From the NCBI GenBank assembly GCA_029883265.1, contig JAOUJM010000015.1, forward strand, positions 1 through 41,920: DNA of 41,920 nucleotides, written 5' to 3'. The stretch comes from Gammaproteobacteria bacterium (GTDB lineage Bacteria; Pseudomonadota; Gammaproteobacteria; S012-40). The position numbers and the translations under genes were made by a program. Below, one piece after another: positions 22,232 through 37,759 of the stretch (positions within the stretch are counted from its first letter, which is position 1; each line of letters starts with the position of its first letter). Below the pieces are notes generated by a model, which searched no databases, was not told where the DNA came from, and saw only the letters and a list, made by a program, of their open reading frames with translations.

Positions 22232-24901
22232 CTAGCTAGCTCGCTTTAAGTGAAGTTGAATCCATTGTTCGAGTTCCGGGATTGGCAAAGGACGGGATAG
22301 CAGAAAACCTTGAACAAAATCACAATGGTGTTGGACCAGAAACTGTAGTTGTTGCTCGGTTTCGATTCCTTCTGCAACAATATCAATTTTAAGATGTCGG
22401 CATAACTCAATAATTGTATTTACAATGGCTCTGTCTTGTTGGTTGTCGGGGATTTCGACGAGAAAAGATCGATCAATTTTTAGAATATCAACCGGGAATC
22501 GTTTTAAATAATTCAATGAGGAATAACCGGTTCCAAAATCATCGATGGCTATTTTAATGCCTAGGGAGCGAATGGCATGTAATTTTTCAATATTTTGCTC
22601 CAAATCATCTAATAAAACAGACTCGGTGATTTCAATTTCTAGTAAGTCTTTTTGATTGCCCAAGGCGTTAGTCACATCAGTGATGTGTTGAACAAATTGT
22701 GGGTCTTTGAACTGACGCCCGGAAACATTGATGCTGACACCGATTGTTGCGTGATAGCTATCGCGCCACTCAATAATTTGTTGGGCTGCAGCATTGATAA
22801 CCCAGGTGCCGATGTCGAGGATAATCCCACTTTCCTCTGCAATGGGAATAAAGTCCAATGGTGAAATCAAGCCTTTGATTGGATGCCGCCAGCGAATAAG
22901 CGCTTCGACATGACGAATTTCTTGGCTTTTGGTGTCCAATTGCGGCTGGTACCACAATTCAAATTGATTCTCATTCACCGCAATGCGCAAATCATTTTCT
23001 AACTCCATGCGTCTAAAAGCTTTCTCGTTCATGTCCTGAGTATAAAACTGGTAACGCGCTTTGCCCTTCTCCTTGGCTTCATACATCGCGGTATCTGCAT
23101 TTTTGATTAAAATTTCAATCGAAGTGCCGTCGATGGGATAGGTGGTAATGCCAATGCTGACATTGTTAAACAACTTGTGCTGTTCGATGTCGAAACTTTG
23201 ATCGAGCACTAGCAGTATTTTGTTAGCAATATTGGCTAATTGCTCCTGATGAGCAAAATCTTCGATAATGACTGTGTATTCGTCGCCGCCAATTCTGCAA
23301 ACCGTATCACTCTCACGTAAAACACCTTTTACTCGCAAAGCTATTTGTTGCAGTAAAGTGTCACCACAAGAGTGTCCTAGTGTATCATTTACTTTTTTAA
23401 AGTTATCGACATCGATGAACATAAGTCCGACTAATTTGTTTTGATGGTGGGCTATTTCGATGGCATGTTGTAAACGATCTTTAAATAAATTTCGATTGGG
23501 TAAGCCAGTAATGTCATCATAATTAGCTAAACGGAGCAAACGTTCTTGAGCTTGCTTGCGATCACTAATGTCGAGAATGATCGCGACGAAGACTTGTGGG
23601 TCTTCCGAGCGAGCCAATTGAAGATTGATTTCTACTGGATAAGTTGTGCCGTCTTTTCGTTGATGATTTGTTTCAAACTGTAAAAGTTCTTGCTCACCTG
23701 AATACAGCGGCCCTAGTAAATTAATAAATTGCTCGCGTTCATATTCGGGTTTTATATCATAAGGTGTTAATTGTAAAAGTTCATCCATTGTGTAGCCGAG
23801 ATTCTGTTGGGCACCTTTGTTGACAACTTCAAACTTTAAGTCACTGGAATTGAAAATATAGATTTCATTTGATGAATTATCCAGAATTTGACCAAAACGA
23901 ATTTCTAAATTATTGGCTTGTTTGTGTACCATATATTGCTTGTATAGAAACAGAAAGACCAAACCATTGATGCAAGCAATAGCAATAAATGTGACGACAT
24001 TGAGAAAAGAAAAGTTAATACGCTTATCAACGTCAATCATAAAGCGTTGCCCTTTGTTGCCGACAGGTTCGCTTAATTTCAAATGACGTAAAGTGAAGCC
24101 ATCATTGTGTTGGTTATTAACATAAAACTGGAAGTGGTTGCTGGCTTCATTAATTGGTTTCAGTTTAATCTTTGATGTTTGGATAATGGGATTGTTGCTA
24201 GGCAATAAAAAATCAACTTTTACGAGTACAGAAATGAGCTTCTCTGGTAATTGTATTTTGGATTGATTTTTGTCAACACTTGACCAAATAGGTAAAAATA
24301 CGATGTATGCTTTACCGCCTTCGACCAGTTCAAAAATAGCCGATGCAGCAATTTCATTGGTTTGAATGCTTTGCTCGATAGCGGGTTTAAGGTGTGGAAT
24401 CGAATACACATCAAGACCATAAATATCCATGGTGCTTGGGTCACTTGGATATAAATAAGTGATAGGGTAATGTATATCTTTAGCCTTTAAATCTTCCCAT
24501 TGGCGGGTGCCGTTATAAGAAAAACTTTTAACTTTATATTTTTGGTTTAACAAATTTGAATAGCGTTTCTCAAAGTCACTCACTTGTGCATGATTGACCC
24601 GTTGCTGTATTTCTAACATGTATAGTTGTGGACTGGACTCAAATATTTGTTGTGCAAAATTATTTAGTGATTGCGTGCTGGTTTGTGGGTTTTGTGATAA
24701 ATAGGCGCGAACACTGGTTAATACAAGTTCGTTGACACGGGTCTTTTCTTGAATACTATTGATCAAGGTATTCGTTTGAGATTTAAACCGTTCTTGCTCA
24801 GTTCTAAGTTCAGCTTGTATATAAATAGAAAACAAAAATAAGGTGAGCAATATATAAATGGCAAAAGAAATAAATAGATTGAGTCGTTTGTGATGCGCCA
24901 A
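22232..24901 (-). CDS. CHASE-PAS-GGDEF-EAL c-di-GMP turnover protein
   Basis: This 889-residue inner-membrane sensor has TM1 at 9-29, a periplasmic CHASE-like ligand domain at about 45-260, TM2 at 299-320, a PAS domain at about 337-447, GGDEF at about 455-615 and EAL at about 635-885. The cyclase motif is GGDEY (538-542), with an inhibitory RxxD site, RESD, at 529-532. The phosphodiesterase keeps EAL at 666-668, EITES at 757-761 and DDFGTGYSSL at 787-796. Both activities therefore look possible. CHASE domains often sense small molecules; the ligand is unknown. It converges on the pilus operon with only 20 bases between stops, so it may set c-di-GMP for surface attachment (inference). Confidence 0.93.
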   Translation of the reverse strand: MAHHKRLNLFISFAIYILLTLFLFSIYIQAELRTEQERFKSQTNTLINSIQEKTRVNELVLTSVRAYLSQNPQTSTQSLNNFAQQIFESSPQLYMLEIQQRVNHAQVSDFEKRYSNLLNQKYKVKSFSYNGTRQWEDLKAKDIHYPITYLYPSDPSTMDIYGLDVYSIPHLKPAIEQSIQTNEIAASAIFELVEGGKAYIVFLPIWSSVDKNQSKIQLPEKLISVLVKVDFLLPSNNPIIQTSKIKLKPINEASNHFQFYVNNQHNDGFTLRHLKLSEPVGNKGQRFMIDVDKRINFSFLNVVTFIAIACINGLVFLFLYKQYMVHKQANNLEIRFGQILDNSSNEIYIFNSSDLKFEVVNKGAQQNLGYTMDELLQLTPYDIKPEYEREQFINLLGPLYSGEQELLQFETNHQRKDGTTYPVEINLQLARSEDPQVFVAIILDISDRKQAQERLLRLANYDDITGLPNRNLFKDRLQHAIEIAHHQNKLVGLMFIDVDNFKKVNDTLGHSCGDTLLQQIALRVKGVLRESDTVCRIGGDEYTVIIEDFAHQEQLANIANKILLVLDQSFDIEQHKLFNNVSIGITTYPIDGTSIEILIKNADTAMYEAKEKGKARYQFYTQDMNEKAFRRMELENDLRIAVNENQFELWYQPQLDTKSQEIRHVEALIRWRHPIKGLISPLDFIPIAEESGIILDIGTWVINAAAQQIIEWRDSYHATIGVSINVSGRQFKDPQFVQHITDVTNALGNQKDLLEIEITESVLLDDLEQNIEKLHAIRSLGIKIAIDDFGTGYSSLNYLKRFPVDILKIDRSFLVEIPDNQQDRAIVNTIIELCRHLKIDIVAEGIETEQQLQFLVQHHCDFVQGFLLSRPLPIPELEQWIQLHLKRAS

Positions 24902-27305: not shown

Positions 27306-27320
27306 TGGGAAAAATTCCCA
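27306..27320. promoter_or_regulatory. GGGAA palindrome, site A
   Basis: GGGAA-AAA-TTCCC with flanking T/A is a perfect 6-bp-arm palindrome. It begins 21 bases upstream of the beta-propeller start and lies in the 123-base divergent gap shared with the outer-membrane barrel gene. The same gap also holds ACACT-TTT-AGTGT at 27357-27369. It is a candidate binding site for the DUF6502 proteins. Confidence 0.55.
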
Positions 27321-27408
27321 TATTTATAAGTTAGGGTATGCAGACTAGGATGTCAAACACTTTTAGTGTATGTTGCCCACCAAGAGCCCCATTTAAGATA
27401 GGTTGAGC

Positions 27409-28152
27409 GTGCAAGTAATTGAAAAACTATTGAAAGTATTTTTTCTAATATTGCTTTGCTGTGCGCCTGCGCAAGCCGGTATCAACCACAGGATCAACAG
27501 TGGGTATTTTTATAGCGAAGGTGACTATGGATATAAAAAAATAACCTATTTGCACTATGTTCCTGTTAGTTACTTATACCACCTGGGAAGGCATCGCCTA
27601 GGACTGGGTACAGGCTGGTTGCACATTCGTGGTCCAAGTCTCGAAGGTGTGTTGACACGACCCAGCGCTTACTCTGAAGGTCTAGCAGATACATATATTC
27701 GTTATCAATATCGGCGATTGTTACAACATCGGCGGGTGCTAGTGGAATTAAAAACTCAAATTAAAATTCCGACGGCAGATAGCAAGCGAGGTTTGGGTAC
27801 GGGTAAGTATGATGCGGATATGCGCCTGGCCTATCGTCATTTTCTGCGTTTTTTTTGGCTATCGGCACAAGCAAAATACAAATGGCGGCAAGATTTGACG
27901 ACGATTGAATTAAAAGAAACCTGGGGTGTCGATGCAGGTTTCATATACGCCTGGAGTCCTGGGTTTAGTACGATGCTGCAAGCGCAGTTCGAACAAGCGC
28001 ATACAGCTTTTGGTGAAAATAAGAAAAATATTATTCTGTTAAACAGCTTAAAGTTGGCTCGACCACTAAGTTTGAGTATTTATATAAGTAAAGGCTTTAG
28101 CTTGTCCAGTCCTCAATGGAGTAGTGGTTTGCAAACGACGCTGTCTTGGTAA
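27409..28152 (+). CDS. predicted outer-membrane beta-barrel protein
   Basis: This 247-residue protein is best started at GTG 27409, six bases after AGATAGG; TTG 27403 is the alternative. The signal peptide ends CAPAQA. The mature chain alternates polar and hydrophobic residues in short strands (YLHYVPVSYLYHL, HRLGLGTGWLHI, DTYIRYQYRRLL, VLVELKTQIKIP) and ends in aromatic LSW, typical of barrels folded by Bam. The KIPTADSKRGLGTGKYDADMRL segment recalls the MetA-pathway/transporter-like barrel group. The cargo is unknown. It diverges from the beta-propeller gene and converges on the small acidic gene with a 5-base gap. Confidence 0.7.
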   Translation: MQVIEKLLKVFFLILLCCAPAQAGINHRINSGYFYSEGDYGYKKITYLHYVPVSYLYHLGRHRLGLGTGWLHIRGPSLEGVLTRPSAYSEGLADTYIRYQYRRLLQHRRVLVELKTQIKIPTADSKRGLGTGKYDADMRLAYRHFLRFFWLSAQAKYKWRQDLTTIELKETWGVDAGFIYAWSPGFSTMLQAQFEQAHTAFGENKKNIILLNSLKLARPLSLSIYISKGFSLSSPQWSSGLQTTLSW

Positions 28153-28157
28153 CAGCC

Positions 28158-28433
28158 TCAGTTGGCAGGGCCTCCAATCTGTGACTCGGTCTGGTCAATC
28201 ATGTCTAAGGGCAGCGTAATTTCCGGAGTAATATCGGCTGGAAGTTCCGGATCAGGAATATTATCGATGATTTCTGGTAAATCCGGTGTTTCAATAAAAG
28301 CTTCTGGAATAGGCCCATTGCGACCCGTACCCGCAATTCCACTTTGATCAGGTTCTTTCGATTCACTGTGAGCGTTTGCATACACTAAGCATAGGCTTAA
28401 CACGGCAATAAATAGGCTGGTCTTAGTTCTCAT
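28158..28433 (-). CDS. small acidic Pro-rich exported protein with GxxGTG motif
   Basis: This 91-residue protein has signal peptide 1-21 (LFIAVLSLCLVYANA). The mature part carries GIAGTG at 32-37 and then an acidic, proline-rich tail (PDLPEIIDNIPDPELPADITPEITLPLD) with no hydrophobic core, so it is probably disordered. Its start overlaps the end of DUF6502 copy 1 by 11 bases, so the pair is translationally coupled. A GxxGTG sequence also occurs near the mature N-terminus of the DUF5666 protein at 29338 and of the 1176-residue lipoprotein. The function is unknown. Confidence 0.65.
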   Translation of the reverse strand: MRTKTSLFIAVLSLCLVYANAHSESKEPDQSGIAGTGRNGPIPEAFIETPDLPEIIDNIPDPELPADITPEITLPLDMIDQTESQIGGPAN

Positions 28434-29268
28434 GGTTTTGGCTCGAATGGTTAGGGCTTTGTTGACTATAAAAAAAACTGCCTAAGTGAATGCGATAGTT
28501 TGATTGTTCGCTGGATTTGTCCTGTTTTTGTAATTCTCTTGCGGTTTTGTTCAAATTTTTTAAAACATTCATATTTTCTTTTTCGGCTAGCTTTTGTAAT
28601 TGTTTGACCGACTGTTCTGATAGATTGTTGCAATAGACAAAACGATCAAAATGCTGTGGCTGGGGATTGAGAATATTCTCACTACTGGCGGCCATGTGTT
28701 GCTCCAAGGTTTGGCCAAAAAAATAGGCTTTGTCTTCAAAATTATTCACGGGTAAAAAGGCATCTGTTTTTAAATGTAATTTGTCTTTGTCATCAATACT
28801 GATTATGTTGATACGTAACCATTCGTCTAACAAAGTACGCGAGCGCATATCTTGTTTGGTCACAGCTTCAACCAAGGTTTCAAAACTAGGTTCGCCAGAA
28901 GAGGCCAGGCGAAACAGTGGCTTGGGCTTGCCATTTTTAAAACAATAATCGGTATTGGATATCCAAGTGGAGAGCACTTGGGCGCTAACAGATGCTGATT
29001 TTCCAGATTGCTCATTATGGTTGGGTGGTACTTGCCGTAATCGACGAATATCTTTCCGATGGACCCCGGTCAGAACATTGATGCGGCTATCGGTGAGTTT
29101 TTTATTTTCAACTTGAAAATCCTGCTGCGCCACATCCACGTATAGTTGTTTGAGTAAATCACTCATGAATGGGTAACTGATCTGTAGGCGAATGAGTAGC
29201 TTAACCAAAGGGCGTAGCAATTGGCGTAGGGCGTTTATAATAATGCGGTTGTCAGGATGCTCGGCCAT
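28423..29268 (-). CDS. DUF6502-type predicted transcriptional regulator, copy 1
   Basis: This 281-residue soluble protein has an N-terminal helical region with LRQLLRPLVKLLIRLQISYPFM (14-35), LYVDVAQQDF, then a likely helix-turn-helix at 59-80 (LTDSRINVLTGVHRKDIRRLRQV). The C-terminal half contains FGQTLEQHMAAS and FDRFVYCNNLSEQSVKQLQKLAEK, shared in pattern with copies 2 and 3. DNA binding is predicted from the HTH; no member is characterised to my knowledge. No Shine-Dalgarno precedes the ATG; instead the GGGAA palindrome ends nine bases upstream, which fits autoregulation. It is coupled to the small acidic gene downstream. Confidence 0.75.
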   Translation of the reverse strand: MAEHPDNRIIINALRQLLRPLVKLLIRLQISYPFMSDLLKQLYVDVAQQDFQVENKKLTDSRINVLTGVHRKDIRRLRQVPPNHNEQSGKSASVSAQVLSTWISNTDYCFKNGKPKPLFRLASSGEPSFETLVEAVTKQDMRSRTLLDEWLRINIISIDDKDKLHLKTDAFLPVNNFEDKAYFFGQTLEQHMAASSENILNPQPQHFDRFVYCNNLSEQSVKQLQKLAEKENMNVLKNLNKTARELQKQDKSSEQSNYRIHLGSFFYSQQSPNHSSQNHEN

Positions 29269-29277
29269 GGTGTCTAC

Positions 29278-29300
29278 AATGAGGGAATATTTCCCTCATT
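29278..29300. promoter_or_regulatory. GGGAA palindrome, site B
   Basis: The arms AATGAGGGAA and TTCCCTCATT are perfect 10-bp complements around TAT, the longest palindrome of the set. It lies directly upstream of DUF6502 copy 1 and 38 bases after the stop of the DUF5666 gene. It could be an operator, or an RNA hairpin covering the initiation region. Confidence 0.6.
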
Positions 29301-29337
29301 GTAGGGTGGCCGCTATTTGAAATCAAGCGTTGACGAA

Positions 29338-30798
29338 TTAGTTGATGCTTGTGGCAATCAATTCACCGTTAATTCCGAGAATGATTTCCACATGGTCATC
29401 CACGCTGAGGCTTGCAGAAAAACTCGGGTTTACACTGGTGTCAATTACGATGCCTGATATTTCTATCGTGTTACCGCTATCAGTTGAGGCTGTTGAGACC
29501 CGTCCATCGAGTTCCTCACTTTGACCCTGCTCATAGTTTTTACGTACCAATCGGGTCACCACAAAATGATTTCGTATCGGATCTTTATAAGCCTGGATCT
29601 CAAGACGTTGCTGAGTGCCGGTCAGTTTGTCCAAGCTGGATAGATTGAAATATTGATCGGGGCTTCCATTAACACTATCTGTTTCGTCTTTTAATATCGT
29701 ACTTGGTAATACATGGAAAGCAATGCCTAATACTGTAACAATAGGATCACTACTATTGCTTAAATCTACGGATTGTAAATAGGCTGCAACTTCAAGATTA
29801 CTCGCTTGAAAAATTTCAATGTCAGCGGCAACTAACAAACCATCACTATTATAGGTACCCTCGACTTCGACTTTTACGCCAGTAGTCGTTAATAACATTG
29901 CAGTTGTGAGTACGCTATCACTGGCGATTACGGTTTGTCCATTGACGCCAAAGCGATCAGTAGTAAAAATAGTGGTAATAACGCCTTCTAATTCGGCAGA
30001 AACACCGCTAGTTCCTGTGACTTCTTTTTTATCGATGTTGATTAATTTTATTTTGCTAGCTAGCAAAACAGCACCACTAAAGCCTACTTCACTTTTGATA
30101 TCGACATAATAATTGTCTTGAACTAAATTATTGGGTAAGTCGATTAACTCGACCGAACTATCGGCGTAGTTAATTTCTTGGCTGCCAATAAAAAATGTTT
30201 TATTGGTCGTGTTTGCCATTGAGGCAACCCCTTTTAATTCCAAACTTTCAGTGCCACTATAAGTCGGAGCTTTAATATTGAGCCAAGTGGCATAAATCGA
30301 ACCTAATCCATTGGAATAACCGCTAACTTCGATGACATTGTTATTCACAATTAAGTCAGCAGACGCAACACCCTGCAAAATAGTATCAGCCATAATATGA
30401 ACGCTTTGTCCCATGACATCCAGTGTGCCGGTGCCATCGACATCGATGTTTACATTATTCACAACACCTTCCAGTTCATCATCAAATTCAATCAAACTGG
30501 CATTACCATTTAAGCCGTCAACATTTTTGGAACCTCGCACGTTGACAAACATGCCGACGCTGAGCTGTGATTCGGCGGCGCTTACGCCATCTAGGGATAC
30601 CGAGCTATTGGTGGTTTGAAATTCTACACCGTTCACAAACACACTGCCAAAGCCGGTGATTTGTCCACTGGCGACAATTGGGTCGGGTGTGCTGGAGCTA
30701 TCATCTTGTCCAGTTCCGGATTCGCCGCCACCGGCACAAGCGAATAAACTGAAACAAGTGCCAATGACTAATACCGCGTGTAATTTTGAAAACAACAT
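29338..30798 (-). CDS. DUF5666 repeat lipoprotein, copy 1
   Basis: This 486-residue protein has a lipoprotein signal (CFSLFAC, Cys21), then GESGTG at 25-30. The body consists of repeated OB-like beta modules of 60-80 residues. The first is SGQITGFGSVFVNGVEFQTTNSSVSLDG; later ones begin LEGVVNN, LKGVASMA, LEGVITT, VAAYLQSVDL and LDGRVST. These match DUF5666 repeats, whose function is unknown. It is paralogous to the protein at 31683. The start lies three bases after the stop of DUF6502 copy 2 with GGAG overlapping that stop, so the two are one translational unit. The location should be the outer or inner membrane periplasmic face. Confidence 0.8.
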   Translation of the reverse strand: MLFSKLHAVLVIGTCFSLFACAGGGESGTGQDDSSSTPDPIVASGQITGFGSVFVNGVEFQTTNSSVSLDGVSAAESQLSVGMFVNVRGSKNVDGLNGNASLIEFDDELEGVVNNVNIDVDGTGTLDVMGQSVHIMADTILQGVASADLIVNNNVIEVSGYSNGLGSIYATWLNIKAPTYSGTESLELKGVASMANTTNKTFFIGSQEINYADSSVELIDLPNNLVQDNYYVDIKSEVGFSGAVLLASKIKLINIDKKEVTGTSGVSAELEGVITTIFTTDRFGVNGQTVIASDSVLTTAMLLTTTGVKVEVEGTYNSDGLLVAADIEIFQASNLEVAAYLQSVDLSNSSDPIVTVLGIAFHVLPSTILKDETDSVNGSPDQYFNLSSLDKLTGTQQRLEIQAYKDPIRNHFVVTRLVRKNYEQGQSEELDGRVSTASTDSGNTIEISGIVIDTSVNPSFSASLSVDDHVEIILGINGELIATSIN

Positions 30799-30801
30799 AT
30801 T

Positions 30802-31626
30802 TTACTCCGCATCAGGGTCTTCGAAATAATACAAACCAATACCAGCTGCGATTTTTTCATGACCACCTACTGCTGGGTTAACATCCCGATCATACTGCGC
30901 CATTGTTTTATCGGCTTGTTCTAGAAAAGCTTGTCCTTGTTTTTCGACAAATTCTAAAATGATGGGAATTGATTCTGCAGGCAAGTTGTCATAATAAACT
31001 TTGCGTTGGAAAAATGCTGGTTTTTGCTTTTGATAAATATTGCGATCAATCGTGTTGACCAAACCTGCCACATCACGTCCAAGAATTTTTAACTTTTCCA
31101 ATTCACTGTGTGCAGGCACATAGGCGCGTTCTAAAAGACGGATTTTGCCATTGTCGAGTTGAGTAACCACACCAACTTTTAGTAAGTCGTCGAGTATCGC
31201 GCGTGGCGTCATATCACCACTATGGGATTTGACAAGTTGGCAAAAGGAAATATCTGTGTCATCGAAGTCTAAATCACGGGTTAAGCCGTTTCCGTTCTGA
31301 TAGTCTGCATCATGTACCCAGTGATAAACAATGCGCGCTGCGCGTTGATGATTTTCCAAACTGAGTAAATGCAATTGTGCGTCGATTTTTCGTAGGCGTG
31401 CCACTTCTTTGCGTTGTATGCCGGTGATAGTTGCAATGCGTGTGTCGGTTTGTTTCTTGTTGTCAAGTTTGAATTCGTCGGCGGCGACATCGACATAAGC
31501 TTTTTTAGCAATATCAGAAAAAACCGCGAAAGCCAGACCATTACGAAGCAACAGTCTTACCAGCGGTTTGAGTAAACGATAAATCGCTGTTTGCAATATT
31601 TGTTGTTGTTTATCGTTACTGCCCAT
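30802..31626 (-). CDS. DUF6502-type predicted transcriptional regulator, copy 2
   Basis: This 274-residue protein shows the family layout clearly: IYRLLKPLVRLLLRNGLAFAVF (15-36), KKAYVDVAADEFKLDNKKQ (41-59), and a helix-turn-helix-like TDTRIATITGIQRKEVARLRK at 60-80. Further on are SHSGDMTPRAILDDLLKVGVV and FFQRKVYYDNLPAESIPIILEF. Copies 1 and 3 have the same blocks. The start has AGCAGG upstream. A terminator-like hairpin separates it from the DUF5666 gene upstream, and the downstream DUF5666 gene is almost fused. No GGGAA palindrome precedes this copy, unlike the other two. Confidence 0.75.
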   Translation of the reverse strand: MGSNDKQQQILQTAIYRLLKPLVRLLLRNGLAFAVFSDIAKKAYVDVAADEFKLDNKKQTDTRIATITGIQRKEVARLRKIDAQLHLLSLENHQRAARIVYHWVHDADYQNGNGLTRDLDFDDTDISFCQLVKSHSGDMTPRAILDDLLKVGVVTQLDNGKIRLLERAYVPAHSELEKLKILGRDVAGLVNTIDRNIYQKQKPAFFQRKVYYDNLPAESIPIILEFVEKQGQAFLEQADKTMAQYDRDVNPAVGGHEKIAAGIGLYYFEDPDAE

Positions 31627-31641
31627 GTTTGTTTACCTGCT

Positions 31642-31671
31642 TAAAAAGGGTGACCAGCGTTGCTGGCCACC
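31642..31671 (-). terminator. intrinsic terminator between DUF5666 copy 2 and DUF6502 copy 2
   Basis: On the minus strand GGTGGCCAGC pairs with GCTGGTCACC (one G-T wobble) around AAC, followed by CTTTTT. It lies 11 bases after the DUF5666 stop and 15 bases before the DUF6502 start. It would make expression of the downstream pair depend on read-through, unless a promoter overlaps it. Confidence 0.75.
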
Positions 31672-31682
31672 AAGCCGCTTTT

Positions 31683-33095
31683 TTATTGCACTGTTATGTT
31701 AGTTGCCACCATGGCGCCTGATGTAAAGTCGATTTCCACTTCGACTTTGTCACCCACATTCATAGCTGGAGGTGTGATGCCACTCATATCAATACTCAGA
31801 CCGTAGATCATCAGGGTGGGACCATTGATTACTTCAACATCGCCTTCCAGCAATTGTGATGTACCGGGGTTGTTCTCACGCTCAAGTTTTGTAGCGATCA
31901 ACAAACCACTATCGTCACGATAAAAGTCCACTTCAATCCAATCACTGGATAAACTATTGCTAGCACTTAGATCATCAATATTGAAATAACGCTCAGGTAC
32001 TAGGCCGTCGGCATTACGTTTATCCATTAGAATGGTTGAATTATTCACATGAATAGTTTGGCCTAAGATGCTAATAGTTTTTGCACTCAAATCCACTGAG
32101 TTCACATAACCTTGCATGTCAACTTCACTATCTTGACCCATGTCAATTTCTTTTACCGTTAAACGGCCATTAGCGTCTTGATAGGCGTGAATTTTTACCA
32201 TTTGGCCTACGCTTAACACTGCCAAATCTTTCAATGCATCTTCCACTAACACCATCGGCATACCGTTAAACGATGCACTATCGGCACCCACGGCGGTAAT
32301 CATGCCTTCGACTTCAATTTCTTCATCACCTTCGAAATCCATGTCACGGTCACCATCACCTTCGATTTCAACTTTGGTAGCCATTAACAGATTTGCTGCA
32401 GGTGCTGCATCGGATTTAACTTCAACATACAATCCATCGACCGCTGCACCATTTGGTAATCCTTCTAAGGTGGCGCCTGAATAGTCGACTTCCAGTGCAC
32501 CTAGGAAAAAACGTGATGTGGCGGAGTTGTGATTGCTGATAACGCCTTTTAATTCGACTTCATCACCAATGCCCAAGGCTTCTTTCTTTAGTTCAACACG
32601 GGTTGCGAATATATTGCCTGCACCGTCACTAAAGCCGCTGATTTCAACAATGTGTCCACTCAGTATTTGATCTAATGAGGTGACCGTCGCAACTTTGGAT
32701 TCAAAAATCGTTGTTGCTGACGTTGTTACGATTTGACCCATAACCGTTAGGCTAGCGTTAATTGCTAGGTTATTAGCTGTCACAACACCTTCAATTTCAT
32801 CGGCAAATTCAATCGTTGTTGCGTTGCCAGTAGTGCCATCCGGGTTTACTTCACCTTTTAGGCTAACAACCATGCCCACGGCAAGATCGCTTTCGCTACC
32901 GCTGGCTCCATCTAAAGAAAAGCTTGCGTTAGTGGTTTCATACTCCACACCATTAACATAGACACTGCCAAAACCCGTGATAATACCCGACGTGGTTTTC
33001 GCGACGGTTGTGGTTACTGGATCATTTGAGCAAGCCGTGCTTGCAAGTGCCAGAGACACTGCTAATGCGCTTGCGCTGAGTTTGAAATAAGTCAT
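31683..33095 (-). CDS. DUF5666 repeat protein, copy 2
   Basis: This 470-residue protein starts at ATG 33095, eight bases after GAGG; ATG 33101 sits too close to that site. The signal sequence ends LASTAC, a fair lipoprotein box with Cys22. The repeated beta modules begin SGIITGFGSVYVNGVEYETTNASFSLDG, IEGVVTANN, LKGVISNHN, VEGMITAVG, MQGYVNSVDL and LEGDVEVING, in the same order as copy 1, so the two arose by duplication. An acidic insert (DGDRDMDFEGDEEIEVE) near the middle may bind cations. Unlike copy 1 it lacks the GxxGTG motif. The function is unknown. It is preceded by palindrome site C and followed by a terminator. Confidence 0.8.
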   Translation of the reverse strand: MTYFKLSASALAVSLALASTACSNDPVTTTVAKTTSGIITGFGSVYVNGVEYETTNASFSLDGASGSESDLAVGMVVSLKGEVNPDGTTGNATTIEFADEIEGVVTANNLAINASLTVMGQIVTTSATTIFESKVATVTSLDQILSGHIVEISGFSDGAGNIFATRVELKKEALGIGDEVELKGVISNHNSATSRFFLGALEVDYSGATLEGLPNGAAVDGLYVEVKSDAAPAANLLMATKVEIEGDGDRDMDFEGDEEIEVEGMITAVGADSASFNGMPMVLVEDALKDLAVLSVGQMVKIHAYQDANGRLTVKEIDMGQDSEVDMQGYVNSVDLSAKTISILGQTIHVNNSTILMDKRNADGLVPERYFNIDDLSASNSLSSDWIEVDFYRDDSGLLIATKLERENNPGTSQLLEGDVEVINGPTLMIYGLSIDMSGITPPAMNVGDKVEVEIDFTSGAMVATNITVQ

Positions 33096-33154
33096 AGCCA
33101 TTACCTCGTTTTAAATACAAAGAGAAGGTTGAATGCCTTCCGCTTTTGTCTTAT

Positions 33155-33172
33155 TTGGGAATAATTTCCCAA
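33155..33172. promoter_or_regulatory. GGGAA palindrome, site C
   Basis: The 7-bp arms TTGGGAA and TTCCCAA pair around TAAT. The site lies about 60 bases upstream of the DUF5666 copy 2 start, a normal promoter or operator distance. Confidence 0.55.
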
Positions 33173-33349
33173 TTACAAACTGACCGCTTTATTTATCGGA
33201 GAAGTTAAGGTTTTCTTTAGATGTTTATTTTTGTTACAAAGCAATAACTTATGGATTTTTCTTAATTGAAAGGGTTGCATCCGGAGGTGGTAATCTGGAA
33301 ATATAACTCAATGTTTAACCGATTATAATCAATGAAAATTATCAAAAAA

Positions 33350-33363
33350 GGGAAAAATATCCC
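33350..33363. promoter_or_regulatory. GGGAA-type palindrome, site D (imperfect)
   Basis: GGGAA-AAAT-ATCCC differs at one position from the GGGAA-N4-TTCCC form. It is 41 bases from site E (start to start), close to four helical turns, so two dimers could bind one face of the DNA. Confidence 0.45.
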
Positions 33364-33390
33364 GTAAGAATATTTACAGTGAATAAAAAC

Positions 33391-33404
33391 GGGACTATTA
33401 TCCC
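33391..33404. promoter_or_regulatory. GGGA-type palindrome, site E (imperfect)
   Basis: GGGAC-TATT-ATCCC ends four bases before the ATG of DUF6502 copy 3. It occupies the place where a ribosome-binding site would be expected. It is a candidate autoregulatory operator or translational element. Confidence 0.45.
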
Positions 33405-33408
33405 TTTT

Positions 33409-34224
33409 ATGAAAAACATCAGCCCAATACTTAGCAAAGCCATTATTCATCTACTCAAACCAATTGTGCGGATTATGCTTCGATATGACATCACCCATGG
33501 CGAATTTGTCGCTTTGGCAAAACGTGCTTATATCGAAACTGCCGCGACGCATTATCAAATTGAGGGCCGTAAACAGACGTATTCGCGTATTGCGGTGATC
33601 ACGGGTCTGAATCGTAAAGAGGTGGTGCGCTTATCACAGCTTGACGATGACGTGCCGCCTGTTGGCAAGCAAGCCTTGAATCGCGCTGCACGGGTGATTT
33701 CTGGTTGGACACGTGATCCTGATTTTTTAAATGAGCAACAGCAAGCAAAAGACTTGGTTCTACGCGGCAGTGACGATAGTTTTGAGGCATTGGCTGGGCG
33801 TTATAGCGGCGATATAACCGGTCGCGCTATTCTCGATGAATTGTTGCGAGTAGGTGCAGTTACAAAAATTGATAAGCAGACAGTGCGTTTGAATAATGAG
33901 GCATATATTCCTCAAGACAACGATGTCTCAAAAATTGAAGTAGGTGCGCGTTGCATTAGCGATTTAAGCAAAACCGTTGCACATAATTTGGAAGCACCCG
34001 TCAGTGAAGCCTATTTTCAACGTCAGGTCAGTTATCGTGATATGCCGTCGCATATCGTCAAAGAATTTCATGCGTTTAGCAAACAGCGCTGCGTAGATCT
34101 GGTGCGTGAATGTGATCAGTGGTTAGCTCAGCGAAAACAGTTTATGCAAGTAGATGATGATGAGCAAACCCATCGGGTTGGTTTGGGAATCTATTTTTTT
34201 GAAAATAAAACAGATGAGGAATAA
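33409..34224 (+). CDS. DUF6502-type predicted transcriptional regulator, copy 3
   Basis: This 271-residue protein is started at ATG 33409, because MKNISPILSKAIIHLLKPIVRIML aligns with the N-termini of copies 1 and 2. A GTG frame from 33379 would translate the palindrome. The HTH-like segment is QTYSRIAVITGLNRKEVVRLSQL (56-78). SGDITGRAILDELLRVGAV and YFQRQVSYRDMPSHIVKEF match copy 2 closely. No Shine-Dalgarno is visible before the start. The large beta-helix lipoprotein begins four bases after its stop, so each DUF6502 copy is directly followed by an exported protein. Confidence 0.75.
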   Translation: MKNISPILSKAIIHLLKPIVRIMLRYDITHGEFVALAKRAYIETAATHYQIEGRKQTYSRIAVITGLNRKEVVRLSQLDDDVPPVGKQALNRAARVISGWTRDPDFLNEQQQAKDLVLRGSDDSFEALAGRYSGDITGRAILDELLRVGAVTKIDKQTVRLNNEAYIPQDNDVSKIEVGARCISDLSKTVAHNLEAPVSEAYFQRQVSYRDMPSHIVKEFHAFSKQRCVDLVRECDQWLAQRKQFMQVDDDEQTHRVGLGIYFFENKTDEE

Positions 34225-34228
34225 AACA

Positions 34229-37200
34229 ATGGACGGTTTAAAAAAAATTAAACAACAACTCCTCACACTTTGCTTAAGCATCAGTTTGATGGCCTGTGGA
34301 AGTGGAGGTGAAGGGGGTGACGACGGCGTGATTGGCACCGGTCAGGTGAGTGGAACAGTAGCGGTTGGTAAAGCGCTAGCGAATACAAGCGTAGAAATAA
34401 GAGGTCGTCAAGGCAAACGGACACAGGCGCAGACGAATGTGCAAGGTTTTTATCAAATTGATGTAAAGGATTTCCAAGCACCGTTTTTGATCCGCGTAAA
34501 AAACCAAGAAAAGGAATTGTATAGTATTGCGAATAACCCTGGCACTGCAAATGTGCATCCGTTGAGTGATCTGGTGGTGCGCAACTGGTTTGCTTTTCAG
34601 CAACTAAATATAAAAACATTGTTTGAACAATCGGGTGAGTTGGCTCAAGTACCCAGTGCTGATGATATTGAAGCTTTGGTTGCAGCACTACAAGCAATTC
34701 TGAAACTGGCTTACGCTGAATTTGCGGTGCCTGAACAGTTTCATTTTGTGACTTCGGCGTTTAATGCCGATCAAACAGGTTTTGATCGCTTATTGGATTT
34801 TACGTTTATTCACATGCAGGCCAATGTGTTGCAATTAGGTCTTCAAGACCCGGATACAGGTTTGCCAGGAAATCTATTATCGGGCTTCAATCTGGCTCAT
34901 CCGTTAAATCATAACGATAGTGTCATACCTTCCGTTCCACAGCAGGTAACGGCATTGGCCGCCAGCACTAGCAGTAACTTAATTGTGTGGGACCAGGCAA
35001 ATGACAATCTTGGTATTGCTGGCTATATCGTGTTTCGTGATAATGTGGAAGTCGCTCGAGTACCCGTGCCGGTTTTTCGTGATGTAGGTTTGCAAAGCAG
35101 CACGCAATATTGTTATCGTATTCAAGCGATTGATGCTGCAGGCAATCAATCAAACAAATCGAATAAAGCGTGTACTGAAACTTTGGGGATATTGGATAAT
35201 ACAAAACCTGCTGCACCTATTGATATAGTTTTTAATCAAATTTCTCATCAACAATTGAGTTTGAGCTGGACACCTTCCAACGATAGTGATGTGTTGTCCT
35301 ATCATGTTTATCGCAAGGAAACCAGTCAACCCGCAAGTAAAATTGTTGTCACGCCATACTCTCTGTTCGTGGACAAGTTTTTAAAGCCGGCCACTGAATA
35401 TTGTTACCAGGTTAGCGCCATGGATGCCGCCGGCAATGAATCGCCATTGAGTTCATCTTCATGTGCAAGTACCACCAGTCAGGCGGTCGACGATGTGATC
35501 GCACCCTATAGTTACGCTTTGCCTGTCGGCGGCACTTATGCCAAAGCGCAAACCGTAAGCTTGGCTTGTGAAGATAATTCGGGTTTATTGTGTGCTGCGA
35601 TTTATTACACGCTCGATGGTAGTGAACCGACAAGCTCCTCCACTCAATACGCTGGACCTATTCGCATTAGCACGGATAGTGTTTTACGTTTTTTTGCTGA
35701 AGATCAGGCCGGTAATTATCAAGCAGTGCAAAACCAAACCTATACGATTGATGTTAACGCTGCAGCCAAACAATCGCTGATTAGTTTTACTGCGTCTACG
35801 TATAATGTAGGTGAACACGATGCTGCAGTGGCGCTCACGGTTCAGCGTACGGGTAACACTGACGAAGTTATACGTGTGGATTATTGGACCGAAGAAGATA
35901 GTGCCTTAGTGGTTTATGATTTTAGTGAAAAACATGGACAGCTATTTTGGGATCGTGGTGATAGTAGCAATAAAACTATTTATATTCCCATCAAAGCTGA
36001 TATGAATGATGAACAAAGTGAGCAATTCAACGTAGTCTTAGCAAATGTGTCAGTGTATGGCGAACTGGGTACTCATCGTAGTGCACAGGTGATCATTAAC
36101 AATCAGAACTGTAGCAATCAATTGCAAAGCGGCAGTTATTCTGAAGATTTAGTCGTGCCTGCAGGTTGTTCATTTGTTGATGGTGGGATTACCATAACAA
36201 GCAATTACAATATCAATTTTGCACCAGGGGCGAGTTTAATCTTTCATGACGGAGATGGTTTGCGCATAGAGACTGGAGCATCGATCACCGCCGATGGTAC
36301 GCAAGCACAACCAATTTTGTTAACGAGTGTGAGTCAATTGGCCGGTTATTGGGATGGCGTGACCTTGATAAACTCAAATGACTTAAAAAATAGCTTGCGC
36401 TATGTGACCATTGAATATGCCGGACAGGCTGGTCTGGGTAATGCGAATTTAACTTTATATGGTTCCTCACCCGGTAACTATTTGCAAATGCACAAGGTAA
36501 ACTTAAGTGATAGTCAAGGATACGGTTTGTATGTATCCGAGAATAGTCGGCTAGTGAATTTCTCGCAAAACAATTTCAAACGAAATACCTTGGGCGCAAT
36601 TCAAATGGCAGCCAATGATGTTTCCCAATTGGATGAAGCAAGTGATTATCGTGGCAATATGCTTGACTATATTGTTGTGACCAACGGACGTCGTGTGACC
36701 AACACACAAACGTGGCCAAAAACCAATGCTGCGTATTTTGTTGACGGTTTAGAGATTGCTAATGCAAATCTGACAATAAGCCCGGGATCAACTTTGGTGT
36801 TTGAACACGATACCCAGTTACGAGTCGATAGTGATGCAGCGCTCACTGCACAAGCGAACGTAGATAAACCAATTGTTTTTACATCGGAAGATGGATACGC
36901 GGGGGATTGGGGTGGTATTCGATTTCTCTCATCCAATAGCCCAAATAATATTTTAGATTATGTTATCGTAGAGTATGCCGGTGGTGCGGTTGGCAATGGT
37001 TCGGGAGCGATTGTGACCTATGGGGCCAGTAGTACGCCACAACGTTTACGTATGAGTAATAGCATCGTGCGACATAGTGCAAGTTTTGCATTAGATGCTG
37101 CCGCAGGTGCAAATTTGAGTCAGTTTGCTAATAATCAATTCACGAACAACGCAAAGTCCGCCCGTGTGCATGTGAATGCGGTTCATTATTTGGATAAAGC

Positions 37201-37759
37201 GAGTGATTACACGGGTAACACCATTGATCGAATTGAGATTGTCGATAATCGACTCGATCAAGCACAAACCTGGAAGCATCTCAATGTTTCTTATGAAATT
37301 AGCAATGTTAATCTTCATGCTGACCTAATCATTGAGGCGGGTGCTACAATTTATGTGAATCAGGGCGGACGTATTCAAGTTACGGACGGCGTTTCATTGA
37401 ATGCAGTGGGGACTGTTGCTGCACCTATTTCGTTTCTGGGGCTAGTCGAAGAGCCCGGTTCCTGGGATGGATTTGATTTTGTTTTTTCTGAACGAACATC
37501 AAATAAACTGATACATACGATTATTGATCATGCAGGTGCATCCTTGAATTCCGGTGGTAATTTCGCTCCGGCCGCTATTGTATTATATGGATCAAGCAGT
37601 AGTCCTTCTAAAGTTGAAGTTAGTGGGACGATTGTTCGCAATCCAGCAGGTCATGGTATTTGGGTGAGTGACGGATCAAGCCTGGTGTTAGATGAAATTA
37701 ATGCCAATACGTTTGAAAATATCCCGGTTGGCGCACAAAATATTGTATATGCGCCTTAA
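34229..37759 (+). CDS. large multidomain surface lipoprotein (FN3, chitobiase-like, Calx-beta, beta-helix)
   Basis: This 1176-residue protein starts at ATG 34229, seven bases after GAGGAA, which overlaps the preceding stop region. The signal ends SLMAC (Cys23), followed by a Gly-rich spacer with GVIGTG (33-38). Domains in order: carboxypeptidase-regulatory-like module (about 40-95), a helical region (105-205), two fibronectin-III domains (about 235-318 and 327-416), a chitobiase/hexosaminidase C-terminal-like module with YYTLDGSEPTSSSTQYAGPI (425-508), a Calx-beta-like domain (515-625), then three repeated right-handed beta-helix modules (about 640-810, 820-1000, 1010-1176). Each helix module ends with YGSS/YGAS and a segment on displaced neighbours. 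No catalytic residues are obvious. Adhesion or polysaccharide binding is the likely role. Confidence 0.8.
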   Translation: MDGLKKIKQQLLTLCLSISLMACGSGGEGGDDGVIGTGQVSGTVAVGKALANTSVEIRGRQGKRTQAQTNVQGFYQIDVKDFQAPFLIRVKNQEKELYSIANNPGTANVHPLSDLVVRNWFAFQQLNIKTLFEQSGELAQVPSADDIEALVAALQAILKLAYAEFAVPEQFHFVTSAFNADQTGFDRLLDFTFIHMQANVLQLGLQDPDTGLPGNLLSGFNLAHPLNHNDSVIPSVPQQVTALAASTSSNLIVWDQANDNLGIAGYIVFRDNVEVARVPVPVFRDVGLQSSTQYCYRIQAIDAAGNQSNKSNKACTETLGILDNTKPAAPIDIVFNQISHQQLSLSWTPSNDSDVLSYHVYRKETSQPASKIVVTPYSLFVDKFLKPATEYCYQVSAMDAAGNESPLSSSSCASTTSQAVDDVIAPYSYALPVGGTYAKAQTVSLACEDNSGLLCAAIYYTLDGSEPTSSSTQYAGPIRISTDSVLRFFAEDQAGNYQAVQNQTYTIDVNAAAKQSLISFTASTYNVGEHDAAVALTVQRTGNTDEVIRVDYWTEEDSALVVYDFSEKHGQLFWDRGDSSNKTIYIPIKADMNDEQSEQFNVVLANVSVYGELGTHRSAQVIINNQNCSNQLQSGSYSEDLVVPAGCSFVDGGITITSNYNINFAPGASLIFHDGDGLRIETGASITADGTQAQPILLTSVSQLAGYWDGVTLINSNDLKNSLRYVTIEYAGQAGLGNANLTLYGSSPGNYLQMHKVNLSDSQGYGLYVSENSRLVNFSQNNFKRNTLGAIQMAANDVSQLDEASDYRGNMLDYIVVTNGRRVTNTQTWPKTNAAYFVDGLEIANANLTISPGSTLVFEHDTQLRVDSDAALTAQANVDKPIVFTSEDGYAGDWGGIRFLSSNSPNNILDYVIVEYAGGAVGNGSGAIVTYGASSTPQRLRMSNSIVRHSASFALDAAAGANLSQFANNQFTNNAKSARVHVNAVHYLDKASDYTGNTIDRIEIVDNRLDQAQTWKHLNVSYEISNVNLHADLIIEAGATIYVNQGGRIQVTDGVSLNAVGTVAAPISFLGLVEEPGSWDGFDFVFSERTSNKLIHTIIDHAGASLNSGGNFAPAAIVLYGSSSSPSKVEVSGTIVRNPAGHGIWVSDGSSLVLDEINANTFENIPVGAQNIVYAP

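Follow-up and report, generated by a model that had tools for sequence, protein, structure and literature searches.

Within the window, by which we mean the whole 41,920-base stretch of DNA analysed here, is a cluster comprising three DUF6502 genes, two genes for DUF5666 lipoprotein-like proteins, one for a large fn3/CHB_HEX lipoprotein-like protein and one for a β-propeller protein, as identified by Pfam search. All three DUF6502 proteins pass the curated cut-off of that family (PF20112, 27 bits), with scores of 110, 235 and 206 bits. Copy 1 (281 aa; 28423..29268, minus strand; E 9e-32) belongs to a clade referred to here as N5, after the 5-bp spacer of its predicted operators, and its nearest relatives are all N5. 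Copy 2 (274 aa; 30802..31626, minus strand; E 7e-70), whose nearest relatives are all N6, and copy 3 (271 aa; 33409..34224, plus strand; E 5e-61) belong to the N6 clade, with a 6-bp spacer.

Flanking copy 2 on the same strand are the two DUF5666 genes (PF18914): copy 1 (29338..30798, minus strand) and copy 2 (31683..33101, minus strand), the latter standing first in an operon with DUF6502 copy 2. Following DUF6502 copy 3, and likely co-transcribed with it, is the gene for the large surface lipoprotein-like protein (34232..37759, plus strand), in which the Pfam search recognizes fn3, CHB_HEX_C and Calx-beta domains. The secreted β-propeller protein (PF09826; 25111..27285, minus strand) is a predicted target of an N5-type regulator. 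Adjoining its gene is one for a CHASE-PAS-GGDEF-EAL protein (22232-24901).

Five palindromes, described here as predicted operator sites and given without strand, lie among these genes. Site 1 (GGGAAAAATTCCC, 27307..27319) is located ~21 bp upstream of the β-propeller gene (ATG 27285), and site 2 (GGGAATATTTCCC, 29283-29295), which forms the middle of a perfect dyad of 31 bp (CTACAATGAGGGAATATTTCCCTCATTGTAG, 29274..29304), 14 bp before DUF6502 copy 1 (ATG 29268). Upstream of the DUF5666 copy 2–DUF6502 copy 2 operon is site 3 (GGGAATAATTTCCC, 33157..33170), about 55 bp from the DUF5666 start (ATG 33101). Site 4 (GGGAAAAATATCCC, 33350..33363) and site 5 (GGGACTATTATCCC, 33391..33404) lie about 45 and about 4 bp upstream of the start of DUF6502 copy 3, for which ATG 33409 is likelier than the mechanically listed GTG 33379; relative to the copy 3 promoter, site 4 precedes the −35 box and site 5 contains the −10 box. 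Tandem sites of this kind recur at other loci. The spacer between GGGA and TCCC measures 5 bp in sites 1 and 2, and 6 bp in sites 3, 4 and 5.

A pattern search of the whole window for GGGA-N5/6-TCCC returned exactly these five matches (dinucleotide shuffles: mean 0.75, maximum 4). The original prediction, of five palindromes at these coordinates and none elsewhere in the 41.9 kb, therefore held, as did its count of three perfect sites and two with one or two mismatches: the GGGAA/TTCCC arms are perfect in three sites, with one mismatch in site 4 and two in site 5. Its range of 4 to 61 bases upstream of the genes did not, and is replaced by the distances given above (about 21, 14, 55, 45 and 4 bp), measured from the likeliest start codons.

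The motif upstream of DUF6502 genes and their partners

For a comparison across genomes, homologues of DUF6502 were drawn from the window genome's order, class and phylum, as well as from named genomes; 177 non-redundant genes came with upstream DNA. Every inverted repeat with arms of 4 or 5 bases and a spacer of 0–12 was then enumerated in the 220 bp upstream of these genes, without use of the predicted motif. The three top-ranking dyads are TGGG-N8-CCCA (54 genes against 0.3 expected from shuffles), GGGA-N6-TCCC (60 genes against 0.7) and GGGA-N5-TCCC (40 genes against 0.6). An exact site is present ≤200 bp upstream of 93 of the 177 genes, and a one-mismatch site upstream of 30 more. Site density is 2.96 per kb upstream of DUF6502 genes and 0.060 per kb elsewhere in the same loci, a ratio of 49. 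The sites are not confined to Gammaproteobacteria, occurring also in Nitrospirota (L041–L043); the Nitrospirota loci carry, in addition, exact GGGA-N6-TCCC matches kilobases from the DUF6502 gene (L041:256-269, L043:3467-3480 and L043:3697-3710).

Sites also precede the partner genes. In operons with DUF5666 first and DUF6502 second, a site lies before DUF5666 in all 13 fetched cases, and likewise in the DUF5666-first operons of the window and of locus L093. The β-propeller gene is preceded by an N5 site in all five testable genomes of the family (G000, G002, G005, G008 and G009). The original prediction had named three computational tests, namely enrichment of the motif upstream of DUF6502 genes across genomes, sites upstream of DUF5666 genes and sites upstream of β-propeller genes, and each was passed, the first both by the 49-fold ratio and by rank in an unbiased dyad search. 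What it had named as a refutation, occurrence at background frequency across the genome, holds outside DUF6502 loci and not upstream of DUF6502: the motif is found 1.07 times per Mb in DUF6502-bearing genomes and 0.85 times per Mb in others, an excess of about 0.2 per Mb, and away from DUF6502 loci it is near background. We therefore reject the motif as the mark of a large regulon, the genome-wide excess being only about 0.7 site per genome.

No recognized site was found nearby or, where looked at, upstream of the operon for 60 of the 177 DUF6502 genes. Some of these genes are operonic, with promoters farther off than the DNA fetched, and some may have divergent operators (AGGA-N6-TCCT, loci L031 and L047). 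The canonical site was not found at the DUF6502 copies of Rhizobium plasmids. On Rhizobium megaplasmids (L300 and L301), a DUF6502–DUF5666 pair is located directly behind flagellar hook-protein genes. DUF6502 occurs in 74 plasmid records, and a search of viral contigs and phages found none. Within the class of the window genome, 99 of 369 sampled genomes (about a quarter) carry the family.

Spacer classes, promoter anatomy and the operator reading

Going beyond the original prediction, the two spacer classes are paired with two protein clades. All 93 genes (93 of 93; permuted mean 49) share their spacer length (5 or 6) with the gene of the closest DUF6502 protein, and the match persists when only neighbours of <40% identity are allowed. 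At one position of the recognition helix, 35 of 35 N5-clade proteins have His, whereas 57 of 58 N6-clade proteins have Ser, Thr or Asn. As N5 and N6 represent one ancient clade split, the 93 matches are not 93 independent events. Several genomes of the family, including that of the window, carry both clades, each gene having its own clade's operator: in the window, site 2 (N5) is paired with copy 1, site 3 (N6) with the copy 2 operon, and sites 4 and 5 (N6) with copy 3. One base pair of operator spacing is predicted to keep paralogues in one cell apart.

These palindromes are very likely to be operators through which DUF6502 regulators control their own genes. The motif, its position, its overlap with promoters, the spacer–clade match and its recurrence at partner genes are shown by computation; binding, repression and dimerization are inferred, there being no binding or expression data. 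An alternative is that a third, unlinked regulator reads the sites and controls the DUF6502, DUF5666 and β-propeller genes jointly, in favour of which are the lack of direct proof of DUF6502 binding and the presence of sites at the partner genes as well. We consider this unlikely, as the motif tracks DUF6502 genes across distant taxa, and the spacer tracks the DUF6502 clade and differs between paralogues in one genome, which would not be expected of a single third protein.

Also beyond what was originally predicted is the usual location of N6 operators, on the −10 box of a sigma-70 promoter. Alignment on the palindrome of the 38 N6 genes whose ATG follows it by 2–5 nt shows a TTGACA peak and, after a gap of exactly 17 bp, a TATAAT-like hexamer within the palindrome. 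The ATG follows the −10 box by about 7 nt, at the expected transcription start, and leaderless mRNA is therefore predicted for these N6 genes; that many N6 promoters give leaderless mRNA, with the operator on the −10 box, is inferred from sequence alone. The promoter of DUF6502 copy 3 (33373..33401, plus strand) has the same architecture as these 38 homologous promoters, with a −35 box TTTACA (33373-33378), a 17-bp spacer and a −10 box TATTAT (33396-33401) inside site 5. Its ATG (33409) sits 7 nt past the −10 box, and the copy 3 mRNA is therefore also predicted to be leaderless. For DUF6502 copy 1, a putative sigma-70-like promoter can be read from the DNA (29298..29326, minus strand; −35 TTGATT 29326-29321, 17-bp spacer, −10 TACAAT 29303-29298); as its boxes are just upstream of site 2, that site is inferred to cover the expected start point.

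This anatomy bears on a second alternative, in which the palindromes act as hairpins in RNA (attenuators or terminators) or are dyads that arose by chance in AT-rich promoters. Site 2, as a 31-bp dyad, could indeed fold into a strong hairpin. In the leaderless N6 promoters, however, the palindrome would lie upstream of the start point and remain untranscribed, and the absence of the operator from the transcript argues against an RNA device. It is moreover the bases that are conserved, not symmetry alone, and shuffles give fewer than 1 gene where 60 and 40 are observed. We regard this explanation as very unlikely.

In the operator reading, DUF6502 proteins would be sequence-specific DNA-binding regulators, probably dimers, contacting the GGG half-sites, with each paralogue reading its own operator: GGGA-N5-TCCC for the copy-1-like clade and GGGA-N6-TCCC for the copy-2/3-like clade. 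Many sites cover the −10 box or start point of promoters driving DUF6502 and a co-transcribed surface lipoprotein (DUF5666 or fn3-type), and N5 sites are present also before a nearby β-propeller gene. Binding would shut RNA polymerase out, and this autorepression would keep the regulator and the co-transcribed surface protein low until some signal, itself inferred, relieves it. The preference for repression over activation rests on site position alone. The regulon would be small and local, because DUF6502-bearing genomes hold only so slight an excess of sites per Mb over other genomes.

An autoregulating repressor is expected to have a conserved operator within its own core promoter; both the upstream dyad search and the promoter alignment show one for DUF6502. 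In TetR- and MarR-type repressors, too, a local operator overlaps the core of the promoter from which the regulator itself is expressed. DUF6502 proteins differ from these classical autoregulating HTH repressors (TetR, MarR and similar) in that they match no PDB sequence and have no confident Pfam hit to those families; the Pfam entry for DUF6502 carries no HTH annotation, and weak HTH matches occur in single members only. The original proposal, that the palindromes are candidate operators of an uncharacterized regulator family, is supported by the computational tests, binding by purified protein remaining an inference. No mention of DUF6502 was found in the 5.39 million open-access papers searched, a search that leaves most subscription papers outside its coverage, and the family is so far without a described function. 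On the present reading it gains a probable role and a DNA code.

Resemblance of DUF6502 models to HetR

Foldseek was used to search the PDB with AlphaFold2 models of copy 3 (pLDDT 89) and copy 1 (pLDDT 91), proteins of different clades whose input alignments were largely distinct. Occupying ranks 1–3 for copy 3 is HetR (E 7.4e-4, probability 1.00), with the next protein at E 0.27. For copy 1, HetR is at rank 1 (E 0.015, probability 0.97) and the Anabaena HetR–DNA complex at ranks 5 and 6. Fold matches of MarR-type proteins to the models are weaker than those of HetR. The HetR entries compared are 4izz, 4j00, 3qod and 4yrv. The alignments span the whole length of both DUF6502 models, but the best TM-scores are only 0.31–0.36, possibly because HetR is an intertwined dimer.

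HetR is the cyanobacterial regulator of the heterocyst, a nitrogen-fixing cell; it combines an N-terminal HTH domain with flap and hood domains, and the latter two have been described as novel folds (PMC4649674). Its DNA site must contain an inverted GGG repeat, 5′-GGGN5CCC, and its own gene is among its targets (PMC4649674, PMC4192349). DUF6502 operators have the same GGG half-site but a wider spacing (GGG-N7-CCC or GGG-N8-CCC, against GGG-N5-CCC), such that the criterion for a HetR operator is not met. The proteins, of 271–281 aa, are similar in length to HetR (299 aa), and their partner genes differ from those of HetR. Membership of the HetR family would also entail release from DNA by a PatS-type RGSGR peptide, and no peptide of that type is known for DUF6502.

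Sequence homology of DUF6502 to HetR is rejected, as profile–profile and HMM comparisons, made with the PDB sequences of HetR as query, score at chance. HetR hits PF03574 and PF18460 (Peptidase_S48 and HetR_C), whereas the window DUF6502 proteins hit PF20112 only. HetR_C was not found in seven DUF6502-bearing genomes, in a search without a positive control, and no HetR relatives were found in viral, phage and plasmid collections, hence no richer HetR profile was available. The terms searched for a HetR family or HetR-like proteins were absent from the open-access literature, most subscription papers again being outside coverage. A HetR-like fold for DUF6502 is thus a possibility suggested by the models, plausible and not established, and we do not claim membership of HetR.

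The resemblance raises a third alternative, that DUF6502 binds the sites yet acts chiefly as an activator, the role of HetR at several promoters. In its favour, HetR, the best structural match, activates its targets (PMC4649674), some N5 sites are 50–180 bp upstream of the start codon, and site 4 is upstream of a −35 box. Against it, the −10 box itself falls inside many N6 sites, a position at which bound protein should exclude polymerase. Activation is accordingly judged unlikely, and autorepression remains the preferred reading.

A bolder reading is that DUF6502 is a widespread HetR-like family outside cyanobacteria, made up of distant homologues of the heterocyst master regulator that control surface lipoprotein operons through GGG-inverted-repeat operators with paralogue-specifying spacing. 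We lean slightly against it on present evidence. The findings point, by fold and half-site, to a relative of HetR, through which the evolutionary origin of heterocyst control could become accessible to testing.

Matches elsewhere in the source genome

Genome-wide motif statistics rest on pattern searches. In the 5.27-Mb source genome, GGGA-N5/6-TCCC has 33 matches, against 20 for a reversed control; five of the 33 fall into a 6.1-kb part of the window, and most of the remainder are within open reading frames.

A fourth DUF6502 gene of this genome, also a member of PF20112, is located on contig C313 (locus L031), with a paralogue of the fn3 lipoprotein gene after it. Preceding it are two related palindromes, ACAGGAAAATATTCC and ACAGGAATATATTCCTG (L031:1300-1465), of which the one at the −10 box has the core AGGA-N6-TCCT. 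In the recognition helix of the encoded protein, Leu replaces the usual Arg (GLHLKEV). The R-to-L change in the L031/L047 group accompanies an AGGA..TCCT operator, a correspondence that comes from a single clade and is suggestive only.

On contig C281, an intergenic N6 site (GGGAAAATATTCCC, L020:4935-4948) is found 52–74 bp upstream of a gene for a stand-alone DUF5666 lipoprotein of 531 aa. With no DUF6502 gene seen adjacent, this is likely to be an unlinked target in the window genome. The match GGGAGTAACTCCC on contig C67 (L005:1501-1513) was rejected as a DUF6502 site: it precedes genes for a MerR-type regulator and a copper ATPase, and is probably the operator of a copper regulator. A DUF1800-like gene near a site on contig C147 proved uninformative as a conserved target, the protein of the window genome being missed by the DUF1800 model and relatives mostly lacking it. 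A further match, GGGAATAAAATCCC (L016:5028-5041, contig C154), has a ferredoxin/FAD oxidoreductase gene on one side and, on the other, genes encoding a membrane protein and a multihaem cytochrome.
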